From: a virus
Length of the DNA stretch: 43,223 nt
IMG/VR virus record: IMGVR_UViG_3300020459_000022
Span: 1-43,223 of that record
Reading direction: 5' to 3' (one strand)
This document shows positions 2,882-39,943 of the stretch, one piece after another. The notes under the pieces are model-generated. The model had not been told where the DNA came from, searched no databases, and saw only the letters and a program-made list of their open reading frames with translations. Made by a program: the position numbers and the translations under genes. Each line of letters opens with the position of its first letter. Position 1 is the first letter of the stretch.

Positions 2882-3442
2882 GTGAAAAGAACACTAGCAG
2901 TACTAACTGCTCTGATGCTGTTACCTACAACGGTAATGGCATCTTCTATTAGACCAGGATCCAGAGTTACACACAAGTCATTGAATAGTTCTCCATCATC
3001 TAAATATGACGGAGCATTATGCAAGAAAGAAGATAGGTTCATAGAGAAATGTGACATCATTATAGATGACACAGGAGTCAGAGGACCAGAGGGACACATC
3101 ACTAGTGTAGTTAGATGGAGTTCTAAAGAGGATGCACCCAGTGCAGGAGGAGCAGTTGCTGGAGCAGCAGGAGGTGCAATTGTAGGTGGTGCTGCTGGTA
3201 TAGGTACTTGCTTTCTTGTAGGTCCACTTTGCCTCATCACAGCACCTGCAATTATGGGTGGTGGTATGGGAACAGGAGCAGAGTGGGGTGCAAAGAGTGG
3301 TGCTAGAACATTTACTATAGTAGGTGATGATGCACAAGGAGAACGTATCATACAGTTCTTCAAGGTCAAGAGATCAGGAGTAGAGAAAACAGAAGAACAA
3401 TTATTACTAACAACTAAACTAGCAGAGGGAGAAATAAGATGA
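2882..3442 (+). CDS. Exported glycine-zipper protein
   Basis: Starting at GTG 2882 gives 186 residues with a typical signal peptide (MKRTLAVLTALMLLPTTVMA, cleavage after VMA). The upstream in-frame ATG at 2783 would bury this signal and overlap the previous gene by 68 bases, and a strong promoter lies just before 2882, so GTG is preferred. Residues about 85-145 are rich in small residues with GxxxG-type spacing (AGAAGGAIVGG, MGGGMGTGAEWG), as in glycine-zipper membrane or envelope proteins. It contains four or more Cys. Likely exported to the host periplasm; role unknown. Stop overlaps the next start (ATGA). Confidence 0.65.
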   Translation: MKRTLAVLTALMLLPTTVMASSIRPGSRVTHKSLNSSPSSKYDGALCKKEDRFIEKCDIIIDDTGVRGPEGHITSVVRWSSKEDAPSAGGAVAGAAGGAIVGGAAGIGTCFLVGPLCLITAPAIMGGGMGTGAEWGAKSGARTFTIVGDDAQGERIIQFFKVKRSGVEKTEEQLLLTTKLAEGEIR

Positions 3443-3744: not shown

Positions 3745-3768
3745 CACCAAATAAATTTATGCTATAAT
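3741..3768 (+). promoter_or_regulatory. Sigma-70 consensus promoter interleaved with terminator
   Basis: TTGACA at 3741-3746, 16-base spacer, TATAAT at 3763-3768. The -35 overlaps the stop codon of the PsbN-like gene. The predicted start near 3775 is inside the left arm of the terminator hairpin. Confidence 0.7.
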
Positions 3769-3770
3769 TC

Positions 3771-3796
3771 GAGGGTCGCAAAGACCCTTTTTCTTT
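3771..3796 (+). terminator. Rho-independent terminator of the 2.9-3.7 kb operon
   Basis: AGGGTC (3772-3777) pairs with GACCCT (3783-3788), GCAAA loop, followed by a T-rich run that ends at the next ATG (3797). Confidence 0.85.
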
Positions 3797-4477
3797 ATGT
3801 CTTTTACACAGAAAATATTTACACCAGAACAATGTGATGCTATCTATGATGCATCACAGAAACTTCCTGTCAAGGAAGATGAACTCAAAAGATTCTCCTA
3901 CATGGGACAATCTGATAAGGATGATCCTTCACAACAAGAGTTAGCAAAGAACTTTTACAATCTATTCTATGGATTCCTTCAGGACTCTAGTGCATATGTA
4001 AATGGATGTGCTCCAGCACAGACATCTATTCCTATCATATCTACTTCAACACCTAAGTTAGGTAAGGAGTGGCAGTATCATAGGGATGACTTTGAAGACA
4101 AGCAGATGAAGAGAGAGTGGACTGTTATACTTTCTCTATCTGATCCAGATGATTATGAAGGTGGTGAAGTTGTCATGCTAGGTAATGGTAGCGAGTCTAT
4201 ATTGAAGATGCCTAAAGGTTGGATGGCAATCTGTCCTGCTGAGAATTATGTAAAGTATAATGAGGTCACTGGTGGGCAGAGAAGACTTGCTCGTTGGTGT
4301 ATCATTAGTGGTATCAAAGACAAACAGCACTTTGAAATCAACATGAGATATCAACAGTTGTATGATGCATTCCAAGAGAACCTTTCGGAGCAAGCAGATG
4401 AATTATTCAAACTTGCAAACAACATGCTTCTAAATGTTTTCTTAGATAAAACAGAAACCTATTCAGATGATAAATAA
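3797..4477 (+). CDS. 2-oxoglutarate/Fe(II) oxygenase-fold protein lacking the distal His
   Basis: The 226-residue product has the prolyl-4-hydroxylase-like double-stranded beta-helix pattern: His95-x-Asp97 (QYHRDDF), WTVILSLSDPDDYEGGEV (about 108-125), and a C-terminal GGQRRLARW with Arg162 where 2-oxoglutarate is usually held. Aligned without gaps to the common form (FPSxxLHRVTPVTxGxR), the distal iron ligand His is Val152. So the fold is present, but the iron site looks incomplete; it may be a scaffold, use a different ligand, or be inactive. Start: ATG directly after the terminator T-run, with no ribosome site. Such proteins are common in cyanophages. Confidence 0.8.
   Translation: MSFTQKIFTPEQCDAIYDASQKLPVKEDELKRFSYMGQSDKDDPSQQELAKNFYNLFYGFLQDSSAYVNGCAPAQTSIPIISTSTPKLGKEWQYHRDDFEDKQMKREWTVILSLSDPDDYEGGEVVMLGNGSESILKMPKGWMAICPAENYVKYNEVTGGQRRLARWCIISGIKDKQHFEINMRYQQLYDAFQENLSEQADELFKLANNMLLNVFLDKTETYSDDK
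4469..4476 (+). promoter_or_regulatory. Late-promoter-like box (GATAAATA)
   Basis: One mismatch to TATAAATA; overlaps the stop codon of the oxygenase-like gene, 15-21 bases ahead of the glutaredoxin start. Confidence 0.35.
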
Positions 4478-30300: not shown

Positions 30301-31669
30301 TGACTTGATTGGTGCTAAAGCTGGTAATGATAACCCTGATGCTGCATTTGGTACTAACTGGGGATCTGCTGCTCATACTTTGGTAACAATACAACCTGAT
30401 CCAATATATGATGGTCAGAACTCTAAGGGTAATACTGATCCTGCATCTAACGCTGGAGCATTCTTAGATCTATCTGGTGTAGGTAATATGAGAACTGGAC
30501 CTGGTGTTGGTGGTGGATCAGGTGGTGGTGGTGGATCTACTACTTGGAACACAATATATGGACCTGGTTATACATCACAAAATTATGTTGAACTATCAGG
30601 ACAATCATCTGGTTCATGGCAAGTAACTTATCCTTTCAATGTACTCATATCTCCTGTTAGAGCTATGGCTGTGAGGACTACTGCCACATCAACTACATGG
30701 TCACAACCACCTACTGTAACAGTAGATATTGATTATGATCTTGGTGCTGCTACTCAGGTATCAGTAAATGGTATTCATACAACTAATACAGGTTGGACAA
30801 CAGTATGGGATAATGCTGCTGATGCTAACAACTACATGGAGACTACAGTAAGTGCTGCTGGTCTTGCTGGTTCAGGCATGATGGGTTTCCACTTCTTCTA
30901 TCAAGGACAGTTGAGAGCGATCAACCCATATGGAACAAATGGTCCATCATATCTAAATGGTACATGGAACTACTGGGGAGTTTATAGATTCAAGGGTGAA
31001 GGTCTAGTATCTGGTAACACATACAAGATGACTGTTCAAAGAATGACCTTTGGAACTTATACTCATAGTGCTACTAAGAGATATGAAGTTGGTGATGTCT
31101 GGAATATTCCTGGTAGTGCTACTCATACTACTGCAAGTCAGATGTCTTTCACTCATGAGATTCAAGAGGAGACATTCTCTGGTGGTGGAAGTGGTGGAAC
31201 CTATAACTTCTACTATAATGGTTCTAATGTAGGATCTAATACCACTGGTGGTATATTGACAGTAGGAAGTCTAAGGTATACAATGGGATCCTCTGTTGGT
31301 AATAACCAATATCAGATCAAGGTAGAGCAACAGCAGACAAGTGGTGGATCAGGTACTGATTGGCATGACTTATCAGCAAATCCAGGTCGTGATGACCCAC
31401 GAAGAACTGATACTCCTAGTGGTTCTGCTAATGCTGGTAACTCACTTGGTAAGTCTACTACGGACTTCAAAGCGTTACATCACCATCACCCATTCCAATT
31501 CAGTGATGATAGCAGTAGTGCTGGTGTAACTGTAACCACAGCAGGATCAAGTGGATATGGTCAGGGTATAAATTCATACGGAGCAACTCTGGATGAGTTC
31601 AGTACCTTATCATTCACCCTTGATAACAGACCTGCATACTTAGAACTCTGTTATATCTGCAAACTATAG
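24341..31669 (+). CDS. Giant tail fiber/baseplate protein with tail-collar tip
   Basis: 2442 residues. The N-terminal ~150 residues (YVDPNEFNASDL, RPFKTLQRALLEVARFSY, LLSPGDHWIDN) look like a pectate-lyase-type beta-helix start and probably attach to the baseplate. A long beta-rich shaft follows, with an acidic linker (about 1437-1460, EEERKANDEENENEDTE). At about 1880-1985 is a phage tail-collar domain: LPVGGIILWGGAYSNMPKGYCLCDG, PDLRDKFVKGG, PAHSHGLNENYFRHSHG. A ~300-residue beta-rich module with Gly-Ser linkers follows, then a HHHH segment (about 2380) and the collar end DNRPAYLELCYICKL. Likely receptor-binding. Late promoter upstream, terminator downstream. Confidence 0.85.
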   Translation: MSLTRLSNLISSTEGRFLYVDPNEFNASDLITNRGNSPTRPFKTLQRALLEVARFSYVAGPDRGNDKYDQYTVLLSPGDHWIDNRPGYFVNWDTTANYWDTDQQIAGVDVIPQLTDQSNFDIFDDDNDLFKFNSVEGGIIIPRGTSLVGSDLRKTRIRPRYVPDPMYADYLEEKGSGTYEETTDYKLPNVYLEEAPSVTLPRASFFRVTGGCYFWQFSIFDAVPTNTGGIFRYASNDPSDSIKFTKYSQNYEWKTTKESLTNTDTTGLGSHHKLTGFAFANGMTVPDITLSANVASADTSINLNKINSGSQARIHMGDYLLIDNATNASKEIVKVKKVYTALSKVDVYRSQLGTSAPVQHDINTTVTKLNDLGLFYAKIARGFSSTAIEDAIVDAQGEVEARQQENRIVGPLNVDNKIASISITKVVGTKYKLSVNTRGSHGLFKGQIISLINLDATQTSQSSGFGGDINGTVFVSSVLNATTIECEKILAPNTVQQTYVFNQTAAATLIADIDTVDSASPYIFNCSIRSVFGICGMFCDGSKATGFKSMVVAQYTGVSLQKDDRAFIKYMYQNLGNPDIGNNVLMEPVFLKEGETGNVLPSDPTPTKVSTLHSDGAAYYQDNWRTFHIHIRYEGLIQAVSVFAVGFCDHHLIEDGGDISITNSNSNFGNTALRAVGFREKSFPQDKVGKITHIIPPKKLDPDEVKEFSWYPFDTKKTQASNTSNRKTRLYLFGADLPSKTPTYIFDNKFIFGGKANEFVYSDEKVGNKTERLETYLATNTDSDGVYEHVQIKTFNVNPNTDICKLKTTGDSYRWYTGTPVRISSEVGYLPDGMTPNTTYYIITENGSRWKDANWTDGTGNISNVANEFKLAKTIEEARAGTSIDLRSQNPPTNADINNPNKCELKIYQYTSDVKPIPIKHEFKTESTTNEFICVNDGTSPSPTEIAHGFDAGQPIYFSKGISSDTLPSLSSGALSTQQFYYAYPTSRTRFKITQDDPTTGGGRAAAIAGNSLITLGPTMAAGSTTVWANNGQWTTDTEYAGANGTSWESRQPLQYDPTRLNNQVVSDILTYGNWCILTENNHVPVAGTTQQSGNKILNLMLTDNQYTSAEGASKTSRLSYITRQKDNRPNYDRTYRYRYVLPKDNRDARAPFLGYIVKLRTNDDGYVMDTWTGGAPADYTQYERTYYIYNIDEIQDFIPQVQDGVYYLTLILGDIEIDHGKMVRGESGNLAQNWFKKHKFSQSTAELYPALDADNPIDNPDASKSCADHRVHGFVYSDIRTNSTTREGAEAFLLDNKYTTAQTGTICVARDGFARRGREDQSRLYPIGYLRGNSSNRSDDVGIEVELRRPSLIRSGNHTFEYVGYGPGNYSTAFPSKQQRDLSDREIVVSQAKKEDAGVVFYSGLNSQGDLYVGTQKINAVTGQIEIIDESILEISSIPEEERKANDEENENEDTELPDSPEFHDLTVKGILIVENSDDPSLPSSQRIKGSTRSHSVYYGGIQFNTPMEADNPKQRINFYGAPNGYDPAAGGEYHGIHGLLSTNNLNMRAIRVVNRNNEDNIDTEVAGDAYTKDITLWGSTTRPTAYANGGGQSIVNLFSPAGGSVTSNWALGKNHGDIAYKPKGSFGSAGKNNHSWIYLPSGTGGTLGHWYCTGLTQTGGIYPFEDQSTAGNTGSLGINAIYRAETRRSELYVKGSGQTGANLKRDYYIGIDDQTNNPIFWMKKDGSGASAAEPSALFFTNSPSTEISQMVSGGTELHSFEVANGHTAKFGDEVLLNSHVYIQSNAEFLGATSGIIIPTNHNSLQSFQNSSDGCFLRMDGTTSVMEPSISTTDPLGDAGSNPQKSNVYGNWSNSGKEFTSAAPTVFDAHIRDDIQNQALPVGGIILWGGAYSNMPKGYCLCDGGTHKDRFGNTITVPDLRDKFVKGGSTTATGTMTGGYDENEVKTKLSIYGHELSRPETPAHSHGLNENYFRHSHGITVQVGLNDLIGAKAGNDNPDAAFGTNWGSAAHTLVTIQPDPIYDGQNSKGNTDPASNAGAFLDLSGVGNMRTGPGVGGGSGGGGGSTTWNTIYGPGYTSQNYVELSGQSSGSWQVTYPFNVLISPVRAMAVRTTATSTTWSQPPTVTVDIDYDLGAATQVSVNGIHTTNTGWTTVWDNAADANNYMETTVSAAGLAGSGMMGFHFFYQGQLRAINPYGTNGPSYLNGTWNYWGVYRFKGEGLVSGNTYKMTVQRMTFGTYTHSATKRYEVGDVWNIPGSATHTTASQMSFTHEIQEETFSGGGSGGTYNFYYNGSNVGSNTTGGILTVGSLRYTMGSSVGNNQYQIKVEQQQTSGGSGTDWHDLSANPGRDDPRRTDTPSGSANAGNSLGKSTTDFKALHHHHPFQFSDDSSSAGVTVTTAGSSGYGQGINSYGATLDEFSTLSFTLDNRPAYLELCYICKL

Positions 31670-31690
31670 GACAGATTACAAAGTGTCACA

Positions 31691-31716
31691 TACCCCCTAT
31701 ACAAGGGGGTATTTTT
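31691..31716 (+). terminator. Terminator of the tail operon
   Basis: TACCCCCT (31691-31698) pairs with AGGGGGTA (31704-31711), ATACA loop, then five T. Confidence 0.9.
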
Positions 31717-31731
31717 ATGGCATTATATAAA

Positions 31732-31979
31732 TGTTGAGGGATATGTGGTTCTCTAGCCCCAAACCTTCCGACTACTCTGACACTTGACTTAGTACCTTCT
31801 TTGAAAGGTGAAGCACCTCTTGAGCAAGTAAGAAGCAGAGACATGACGTTGGAAGAAACCTATCACAGCACACAGATGACTGATGGTTGAAAGTGGTGGG
31901 GGTTCAGGTGTAAGCGATTCCCTAGAGGTAAATTTGGGCAACTGGGTGAAACCTAGATCATTGCCCCACTCCCTCAACA
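31732..31979 (+). ncRNA. Candidate structured noncoding RNA (~250 nt)
   Basis: No convincing reading frame; many mutually compatible helices. P1: ten perfect pairs, 31732-31741 with 31970-31979 (TGTTGAGGGA/TCCCTCAACA). Long hairpin domain: CTTCC 31765-31769 with GGAAG 31851-31855, CTCTG 31775-31779 with CAGAG 31836-31840, CTTCTT 31796-31801 with AAGAAG 31830-31835, AGGTG 31806-31810 with CACCT 31814-31818. Second hairpin: AACC/ATCA 31857-31865 with TGAT/GGTT 31881-31888. Third helix: GTGGGG 31896-31901 with CCCCAC 31964-31969. Possible pseudoknot CTCTAG 31751-31756 with CTAGAG 31922-31927. A TATAAATG box (31726-31733) lies at the left edge. It matches no RNA class I recognise (not tRNA, tmRNA, RNase P, 6S or SRP). 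Strand assumed from neighbours. Confidence 0.6.
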
Positions 31980-32001
31980 CAATATTCTTTACAATTCTAA
32001 C

Positions 32002-32139
32002 ATGGAACGTGAGTACAACTACTTCAGAGATGAAGATGATTACAGCAACTTAGACCTTGTTGAAGTATTCAGTCAAGAGGAAGGTTTCCAAGACAACTTG
32101 GATGCTGACACACTCAAACTACTAAAGAACTTCAAATGA
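32002..32139 (+). CDS. Small acidic protein (45 aa)
   Basis: MEREYNYFRDEDDYSNLD... ending LKLLKNFK; acidic with aromatic residues. Stop overlaps the next start (ATGA), and the same pattern continues to the SprT-like gene, forming a coupled trio. Starts 22 bases after the candidate RNA. Function unknown. Confidence 0.6.
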   Translation: MEREYNYFRDEDDYSNLDLVEVFSQEEGFQDNLDADTLKLLKNFK

Positions 32140-32255
32140 GCAAGTATTCTGGCAGTGAAAAGTTACTATTCATTGCGTCATTCTTCTGGTTGATGAACTG
32201 GGGTGTTAGACTAACCACCTTAGCACTATCTTCCTTACAACTAAGTTATTTCTAA
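32136..32255 (+). CDS. Small membrane-like protein (39 aa)
   Basis: MSKYSGSEKLLFIASFFWLMNWGVRLTT..., hydrophobic over most of its length and able to form one transmembrane helix. Overlaps both neighbours by 1-4 bases (ATGA, TAATG). Function unknown. Confidence 0.6.
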   Translation: MSKYSGSEKLLFIASFFWLMNWGVRLTTLALSSLQLSYF

Positions 32256-32680
32256 TGTACACCATTTCCATAAGAAGCAACTACGGATTCAAGAAGGACA
32301 TCAGAGAAACTATTGATTGGTTTGTTGACTACCACTCACTCAATAGATTCAAGATTGACTTTGATGTCGTTGTTCGTGGAATGCTTAGAGAGGGATGTTT
32401 TGGTGGATGCACCGTCATGGATGCACAGCACAGACCCAGACATTTCCTTATTGAATTACATTCTGGTCTTGACAGATATGAATTTATCAGTACCTTGATG
32501 CATGAGTTAGTTCATGTGAAACAATGGGTACTCAAACATAAAGCACAGAGGTATGCTAAACAGTTGTGGCATGGCAAAGTAATTGATCGATCCACACCAT
32601 ACCAAGATGAACCTTGGGAGATTGAAGCATATATGACTGAGGGTGAACTGACCAAGCAGTTCATCCAATTTAGAAACTGA
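32255..32680 (+). CDS. SprT-like zinc metallopeptidase
   Basis: 141 residues with the zincin motif HELVH at 83-87 (STLMHELVHVKQW) and the downstream acidic PWEIEAYMTEGEL (about 120-132) that would supply the third zinc ligand. Resembles SprT/DUF45-type small peptidases found in phages; the target is unknown (host or phage proteins, perhaps DNA-protein crosslinks as for SprT). Followed by a terminator, ending the small operon. Confidence 0.82.
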   Translation: MYTISIRSNYGFKKDIRETIDWFVDYHSLNRFKIDFDVVVRGMLREGCFGGCTVMDAQHRPRHFLIELHSGLDRYEFISTLMHELVHVKQWVLKHKAQRYAKQLWHGKVIDRSTPYQDEPWEIEAYMTEGELTKQFIQFRN

Positions 32681-37478: not shown

Positions 37479-37507
37479 TTGACAAATCACTCTGATGGTG
37501 ATATATT
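37479..37507 (+). promoter_or_regulatory. Strong sigma-70-like promoter
   Basis: TTGACA (37479-37484), 17-base spacer, TATATT (37502-37507). Predicted start about 37514, leader of about 50 bases to ATG 37565. Confidence 0.75.
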
Positions 37508-37564
37508 ATATTTGTGGCATTCATCGATGTAAGTCCACGATTGCAAACCCCGACTTATTTTATT

Positions 37565-37690
37565 ATGTCATTCGATGTATCTTTCGTTTCACCTAACTTC
37601 GCTGAGTTCTTACTCGATAGTGCAGTTGATGGTAATGAGATCCTAGCAGTCCTTGAGGACATTGTAGAGGTAGAAGATACAGCACTGTAG
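37565..37690 (+). CDS. Small acidic protein (41 aa)
   Basis: MSFDVSFVSPNFAEFLLDSAVDGNEILAVLEDIVEVEDTAL is an acidic helical peptide driven by its own strong promoter and closed by its own terminator, so it is a single-gene unit. I recall similar short proteins in cyanophages. Function unknown; strong expression suggests an early regulatory or host-directed role (inference). Confidence 0.75.
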   Translation: MSFDVSFVSPNFAEFLLDSAVDGNEILAVLEDIVEVEDTAL

Positions 37691-39653: not shown

Positions 39654-39943
39654 CTATTCAATTTGACAACAGAAAAGTACCACACACAGTCACATTGACT
39701 GAAGGTCAGATCTCTACCATCCTGTTTCATTTAGAAGGAGCAGTGAGTAAGAATGCAAAGAACCTTGATGAAGTTCATGGTATCTTTGAGGTATTAGAAG
39801 GAGCGATTGATCGTTGGTATGATGACCATCATGGTATTCAAGGTAAGAAACTACAGTCTACTCAAATTGCATCACCAGTGACAGTGATGAAGGAACCACA
39901 GTTACCAAACTTGAAAACTCCACCTGTAAGGAGGATACCATGA
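39650..39943 (+). CDS. Small protein (97 aa), unknown
   Basis: TVTLTEGQISTILFHLEGAVSKNAKNLDEVHGIFEVLEGAIDRWYDD (about 14-60) looks like a helical hairpin; the end is Pro-rich. Coupled to both neighbours. No family recognised. Confidence 0.6.
   Translation: MTIQFDNRKVPHTVTLTEGQISTILFHLEGAVSKNAKNLDEVHGIFEVLEGAIDRWYDDHHGIQGKKLQSTQIASPVTVMKEPQLPNLKTPPVRRIP

Follow-up and report, generated by a model that had tools for sequence, protein, structure and literature searches.

In known bacterial leaders discussed in the literature cited within PMC3997798, a fold that starts at the first transcribed base (+1) blocks 5'-end-dependent decay. Cyanobacteria possess both RNase E and RNase J (PMC10989914), and the cyanophage P-SSP7 raises the RNase E of its host, its own transcripts being thought to be protected by antisense RNA (PMC9692554). 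Structured phage RNAs have also been linked to other steps of gene expression: the put RNA of phage HK022 is a precedent for an RNA acting alone on RNA polymerase (PMC9378689), and manA and wcaG, motifs in cyanophage 5' untranslated regions (5' UTRs), have been proposed as riboswitch candidates (PMC2864571). The RNA described here, element A, lies at positions 31733–31978 on the plus strand of a 43,223-nucleotide (nt) stretch of virus DNA (IMG/VR record IMGVR_UViG_3300020459_000022, positions 1 to 43,223), the whole of which is called the window. As delimited by alignments and covariation, it is a whole structured 5' leader RNA of the type A[K[B]], in which a module B is nested inside a domain K and K inside A. 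Element A is very probably a structured RNA in leader position, and there is about an even chance (probability roughly 0.5) that, folded at the 5' end of phage mRNA, it acts in cis as a cap against 5'-end-dependent decay. A cis-acting structured leader is in itself of a known kind; what is new is the nested, exchangeable build from many conserved modules.

The case for a structured RNA rests on comparative evidence, because the sequence of the element in the window folds only slightly better than its shuffles. Its single-sequence folding energy corresponds to z = -1.35 (antisense strand, -0.01), and as 18 of 200 shuffles fold equally well, folding energy alone was rejected as evidence for want of significance. 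In an alignment of 26 minimal copies of ~110 nt each, which aligned readily and from which the window was excluded, 97.7% of the cells in the helices P1, P1b, P2, P3 and P4 are paired; 91 cells are compensated, compared with 33.9 after shuffling and at most 9 when the partner strand is slid, and the same helices were recovered unaided by RNAalifold. A second alignment, of 16 window-type copies with the K domain, contains 80 compensated cells versus 28 shuffled and at most 15 slid, with K2 and P2 strongly covarying. Given that the sequences are related, the shuffles are not independent tests, but the slid controls preserve the relatedness and agree with them. This covariation, a comparison of sequences, is regarded as decisive for element A. 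Among non-canonical cells, G.U exceeds A.C by 22:1 and 40:1, from which it follows that element A acts as plus-strand RNA rather than as DNA or antisense; together with the strand lock to the genes, this bias rules out a DNA cruciform or an antisense RNA.

Known RNA classes and coding sequences were also considered. Neither the window as a whole nor any of 14 related loci had an Rfam match at the gathering threshold, the unmatched families including tmRNA, RNase P, 6S, SRP, manA, wcaG, PhotoRC, glnA and the self-cleaving ribozymes, while a permissive scan of 31650–32050 produced only chance-level matches, which fall on the upstream terminator. ARAGORN called no tRNA or tmRNA in the element region. 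The single plus-strand open reading frame (ORF) of at least 30 amino acids that overlaps the element (31883–32053, 56 amino acids) has no Pfam match, and a short gene was rejected, as the homologues hold inserts of varied length within the element. In a preliminary description, made from the sequence alone, this region had been put forward as a new structured RNA outside the known classes. That proposal is now supported by the covarying helices, whose compensatory changes exceed both kinds of control, by the missing Rfam match and by the lack of any credible gene.

The fold is best explained as a three-way scaffold consisting of P1/P1b, the P2–P3 arm and the P4 hairpin, plus near-invariant single strands. 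P1, the closing helix, joins 31732–31741 to 31970–31979 through ten perfect pairs, exactly as first described, and is extended by P1b, in which GTG (31745–31747) pairs with CAC (31967–31969). The latter pairing is ACG/CGT in other copies, and both of its sides have changed in 10 of 26 sequences. P2 joins CTCTAG (31751–31756) to CTAGAG (31922–31927), a match which had been noticed before but read as a possible pseudoknot. The match is real and covaries (5 of 6 pairs in one alignment and 4 of 6 in the other, these being the minimal and window-type copies); the helix is nested, however, and its versions include CUACUG/CAGUAG, CCUAUG/CAUAGG, CCAUAG/CUAUGG and CUCUAG/CUAGAG. P3, formed by CCCC (31757–31760) and GGGG (31898–31901), provides the apical docking site for modules. 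The K domain (31765–31855) is docked here and is built from K1 (31765–31772/31848–31855; 2 of 8 pairs covarying) and K2 (31775–31779/31836–31840; 4 of 5). Its loop holds module B (ACTTAGTACC..GGTGAAGCACCTCTTGAGC, 31782–31829), whose core is the same in other leaders although the closing helices differ. The window-type alignment further places a hairpin arm, K3 (AACCTATCA..GATGGTT), at 31857–31888, so that the nested hairpin domains anticipated earlier are now resolved as K1/K2 with module B, K3 and P4. Between P3 and P2 runs the near-invariant strand GGTTCAGGTGTAAGCGATTCC (31901–31921), which is also kept in copies found by blastn; it is followed by the invariant linker GGTAAATTTGG (31927–31937), which lies outside the 21-base search pattern, and by P4 (GGGC..GGGTGAAACC..GCCC, 31936–31966), which occurs in GGC/GCC, GUC/GAC and GAC/GUC versions. 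A covariance model built without the window found the 3' half of the window copy at an E-value of 3e-15; the model R1 misplaces the 5' half on account of the long insert.

Upstream, the tail-fibre gene ends in an intrinsic terminator (31690–31716, plus strand; stem 31690–31712 plus a T run), in keeping with what had been reported for this edge of the element. Behind it stands a predicted extended -10 promoter, TGG-CATTAT (31718–31726, plus strand), with a hexamer one base off TATWMT. The layout reads TGG-CATTAT-ATAAAT-G31733, the predicted +1 being the first G of the closing helix. When 89 copies of A were aligned at the helix start, three upstream contexts emerged. In 51 of the 89, an extended -10 of the form TGn-TATWMT precedes the first G of P1 at a spacing of exactly 6 nt; its profile has TG at -18/-17 in ~80% of cases and T, A and T as outer bases of the hexamer in ~90%, and in two loci (L168 and L226) TTGACT is also present at -35 spacing. 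The second context carries the conserved signal GGGGGGACGCxTAAAGTGTxxTATAGTGT, and the third is another module. Transcription thus probably starts at G31733. An extended -10 is a better reading here than a T4-type late promoter (TATAAATA): the TATAAATG box to which the preliminary description had drawn attention does exist at the edge of the element, but the feature that the homologues conserve is TGn-TATWMT. The initial bases are engaged in pairing. In 45 of 47 promoter-proximal copies, every base from +1 to +6 has its complement in the 3' arm, compared with 22% when the 5' ends are shuffled, and the mean pairing probability of +1 to +3 is 0.62, against 0.34 for shuffled ends and 0.33 at other -10 sites, with 0.97 in the window. 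Provided that the start site is as predicted, the first transcribed bases are therefore paired, as in the ompA leader.

Two side observations concern promoters. A longer form of the second signal, GGGGGG(A/T)CGCxTAAAGTGTxxTATAGTGTGAG, directly precedes leaders without an extended -10 in L140 (~2510–2440, minus strand), L004 (2877–2905), L198 and L236; the GGGGGG(A/T)CGC signal is possibly a second class of phage promoter or a processing site. Elsewhere in the window, at 1069–1105 and 3760–3797, a G+C hairpin with a T run immediately follows the extended -10 promoters TGTTATAAT and TGCTATAAT. An ATG comes within ~30 nt, which gives the impression of a terminator, a promoter and a 5' hairpin fused into one.

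Gene context agrees with a leader. Within 4 kb of the copies, 285 of 287 large ORFs run in the same direction as A, and in the simplest 18–19 copies an ATG follows 22–47 nt after it; the element is thus found on the coding strand, behind a promoter and ahead of a start codon. The co-orientation, the conserved -10 spacing and the nearby ATG argue that A is the 5' leader of the downstream operon. Most likely, then, it forms the 5' end of that operon's mRNA, and the separate late transcript that had originally been suggested finds no support in these features. In the window, a short AU-rich linker without a Shine-Dalgarno sequence (31980–32001) leads to the first ATG, at 32002, which opens a plus-strand operon of three genes: a 45-amino-acid hypothetical protein (32002–32139), a 39-amino-acid hypothetical protein (32136–32255) and phrog_10499, a SprT/zincin-like protein with an MHELVH motif and a below-cut-off Pfam SprT-like match (32255–32680). 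The first genes behind other copies are diverse and include a UvsW-like helicase, relatives of PSSM2_072 (the window's relative is DUF7717), phrog_1987 and small hypotheticals. Because the same modules precede many unrelated genes, the function of the leader must be generic rather than gene-specific.

The element is part of a widespread leader family, which extends the initial account. When phage records were compared by blastn, the same non-coding element appeared in P-SSM2, P-SSM5 and four single-cell marine virus contigs (Kyanoviridae). The P-SSM2 copy lies between PSSM2_070 and PSSM2_071 (NC_006883.2, ~56700–56817), and the 3' half of the element is 92.7% identical to it over 81 bases. A 21-base exact pattern occurs in at least 119 stretches of IMG/VR; its conservation is partly due to the choice of pattern, though the copies found by blastn also carry this 21-mer, and strands outside it (GTAAATTTGG, GGTGAAACC) are equally fixed among copies. 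Most matches of an initial 14-mer scan were due to chance, and blastn served to filter them. The named viruses that carry element A infect ocean cyanobacteria. The exact 21-mer of element A is absent from 84,980 GTDB prokaryote genomes and exact 21-mers of module C are likewise absent from GTDB genomes, and a host origin of A or C was rejected on that basis. Inspection by eye showed no module in the remaining large intergenic regions of P-SSM2. Neither Rfam 15 nor a non-exhaustive search of the literature yielded a description of the element, outside which most subscription journals and preprints lie.

In minimal copies the P2–P3 arm is tipped by a short hairpin, and in others modules dock at this tip. 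Whereas the window has B inside K inside A, elsewhere the modules precede unrelated genes singly, in tandem or nested in one another. Automatic classification of the module sites put most copies under 'other', mainly because tandem and stand-alone sites were uncoded, and the host sites given here were read by hand. The K domain is also the core of a separate leader directly behind the -10 in P-SSM7, S-SSM4/S-SSM6b and P-SSM2. K-type leaders without A are seen in the cultured phages P-SSM7 (~39700–39810, L239) and S-SSM4 (~1270–1375, L240), where GAAAACAAACGAG pairs with the distal GTTTTGTTTTC just after a TATATT/TATAAT box. Module B follows A in P-SSM2 and a K leader in L005 and L175; in L200 it lies inside A, and in L226 it comes first behind a -10. 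Its core is constant, its closing helix is fully replaced with compensation (43 compensated cells versus 12.8), and the module in its loop is H, N or C depending on the phage. Module C, which like B covaries independently (30 compensated cells versus 9.9), is near-identical inside A, K and B, at a second site in L043 and in tandem, and stands alone behind the -10 in L230; an 18-base match between it and the psbA group I intron of S-CBWM1 (E-value 4) was taken as chance.

A second, simpler leader in the window likewise lay beyond the preliminary description. It occupies 37479–37538 on the plus strand and comprises a strong TTGACA-N17-TATATT promoter, a +1 at G37514 and GTGGCATTCATCGATGTAAGTCCAC, a module of the form GGCA..GTAAGTCC. 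In the region 37479–37690 it is followed by a 41-amino-acid gene (ATG 37565) orthologous to PSSM2_071. In P-SSM2 the leader of PSSM2_071 consists of this module followed by A and B, while the window orthologue has only a 25-nt version of the first module (37514–37538). The two differ by whole modules, which are thus gained and lost at orthologous leaders. It is quite possible, at somewhat less than even odds, that the modules (A, K, B, C, F, H and N, together with others) represent a cyanophage RNA construction kit, whose parts are plugged into each other's loops and chained ahead of genes to give 100–600-nt mosaic 5' caps for phage mRNAs. Two further components were observed in passing. Module J (GAGGAGATGGATGTGCCTC..GAAGAAAGAACTAACATCC), present in L140 (~1920–1870, minus strand), L001 (2312–2360) and ~25 sites, is often last before the gene. 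It contains a Shine-Dalgarno sequence and an ATG (MDVPLGSQPKKELTSA), so that it may encode a leader peptide; alternatively, it could form a pseudoknot. A stretch resembling a tRNA T-arm (GTGGTTCAATTCCACTT) occurs in long multi-module leaders (L005, ~3300–3350; L165, ~1230); ARAGORN called no tRNA in L005.

According to the proposed protective mechanism, host RNA polymerase would start at G31733, and the folded leader would head the mRNA of the operon 32002–32680. The nascent RNA would fold and place its first bases in P1, the tip of the P2–P3 arm would carry nested plug-in modules, here K with B inside, and the unstructured AU-rich linker would leave the first AUG open. By hiding the 5' end from RNase E and from the 5'-to-3' exonuclease RNase J, the compact terminal fold would stabilize the phage mRNA in cis. 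Several points weigh against such protection. As scored, 38 of the 89 copies are without the extended -10 (some stand downstream of a further module or of some other signal, while a few, including that of the window, are one base off), so the placement of A at +1 is not clear in every case. Because P-SSP7 is a podovirus in which element A was not found, it offers only an indirect parallel with respect to RNase E. A plain hairpin would suffice to block the 5' end, many phage genes do without such leaders, and the near-invariant unpaired strands suggest that something is specifically bound.

The last point would suit a put-like antitermination, in which the folded nascent leader stays on the elongating host RNA polymerase and lets it pass pauses and terminators in the phage operon. 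The element is phage-only, 5'-proximal, co-oriented and generic for genes, and both its +1 position and the variable distance to the ATG fit. However, the operon that A leads in the window is closed by a terminator of its own, and a separate promoter serves the gene after it. In addition, put of HK022 is much smaller, and module swapping is not known there; this explanation is considered unlikely. Recruitment of the ribosome, in which binding of the leader to the 30S subunit or to a translation factor would prioritize phage messages without a Shine-Dalgarno sequence, would account for the several leaders that end in an AU-rich linker of this kind 22–30 nt before the AUG. The distance from A to the AUG nevertheless ranges from 22 to several hundred nt, often with modules between, and GGAG-like sites are present in several other leaders, which leaves this role rather doubtful.

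Compact cores, near-invariant strands and variable peripheral helices also resemble aptamers, and with manA and wcaG as candidates from the same kind of phage, the leader might be a riboswitch or a tandem of riboswitches with each module an aptamer. Such ligand sensing is made improbable by the window copy and the simplest copies, in which no expression platform (terminator or sequestered Shine-Dalgarno sequence between A and ATG) is visible; furthermore, the downstream genes share no pathway, and free nesting of one aptamer in the tip of another is unusual. Finally, the small modules could be mobile RNA or DNA parasites that copy into each other's loops with no benefit to the phage, as might be implied by the near-identical copies of C, two of them within the L043 leader and others in many hosts, by the mutual nesting of B, C, H and N, and by the module differences between the PSSM2_071 leaders. 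No target-site duplications or encoded enzyme were seen, and selection for RNA structure is shown by the strict strand bias relative to genes, by the phasing with promoters and by the covariation of each module tested, so that pure parasitism seems very improbable. Protection of the mRNA from decay by the 5' fold is the reading we prefer.

Rfam has no family for these RNAs, although more than 100 ocean virus contigs share them and the published, cultured cyanophage P-SSM2 has them in its unannotated intergenic DNA. Whole-module exchange and nesting in a natural RNA makes the evolution and folding logic of composite RNAs testable. If the leaders do protect, part of the reason why the mRNAs of these phages survive the degradation of host RNA would become clear, and the modules would be candidate portable 5' stabilizers for cyanobacterial expression work. 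If the construction kit is real, it would correspond, at the level of RNA, to the mosaic shuffling of protein domains and would add a new layer to the control of phage mRNA.

Among described systems, viral exoribonuclease-resistant RNAs (xrRNAs) present a compact folded roadblock that is not located at +1; the likeness to A is an analogy, with no sequence in common, and would hold only if RNase J is blocked. The CfrI antisense RNA and the cyanophage glutamine riboswitch (glnA, RF01739) are, like A, non-coding RNAs from T4-like cyanophages, whereas A is without an Rfam match and is an intergenic leader on the coding strand rather than an antisense RNA. The motifs manA (RF01745), wcaG (RF01761) and PhotoRC-II (RF01717) share with A that they are conserved structured cyanophage RNAs, the first two in 5' UTRs, but they are tied to particular gene classes, none was found here by Rfam scans, and the nested module exchange of the A family has not been described for them. 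HK022 put is likewise phage-encoded, structured, close to the 5' end of the transcript and generic for downstream genes; compared by description only, A is larger, modular and widespread in cyanophages, and any action on polymerase would be hypothetical. In the 5' stabilizing stem-loops of E. coli ompA and papA, as in A, pairing begins at or near +1, in cis and ahead of the start codon. Those leaders are simple hairpins, whereas the element A family is a phage scaffold of 110–330 nt with near-invariant strands, nested swappable modules and a presumed stabilizing role.
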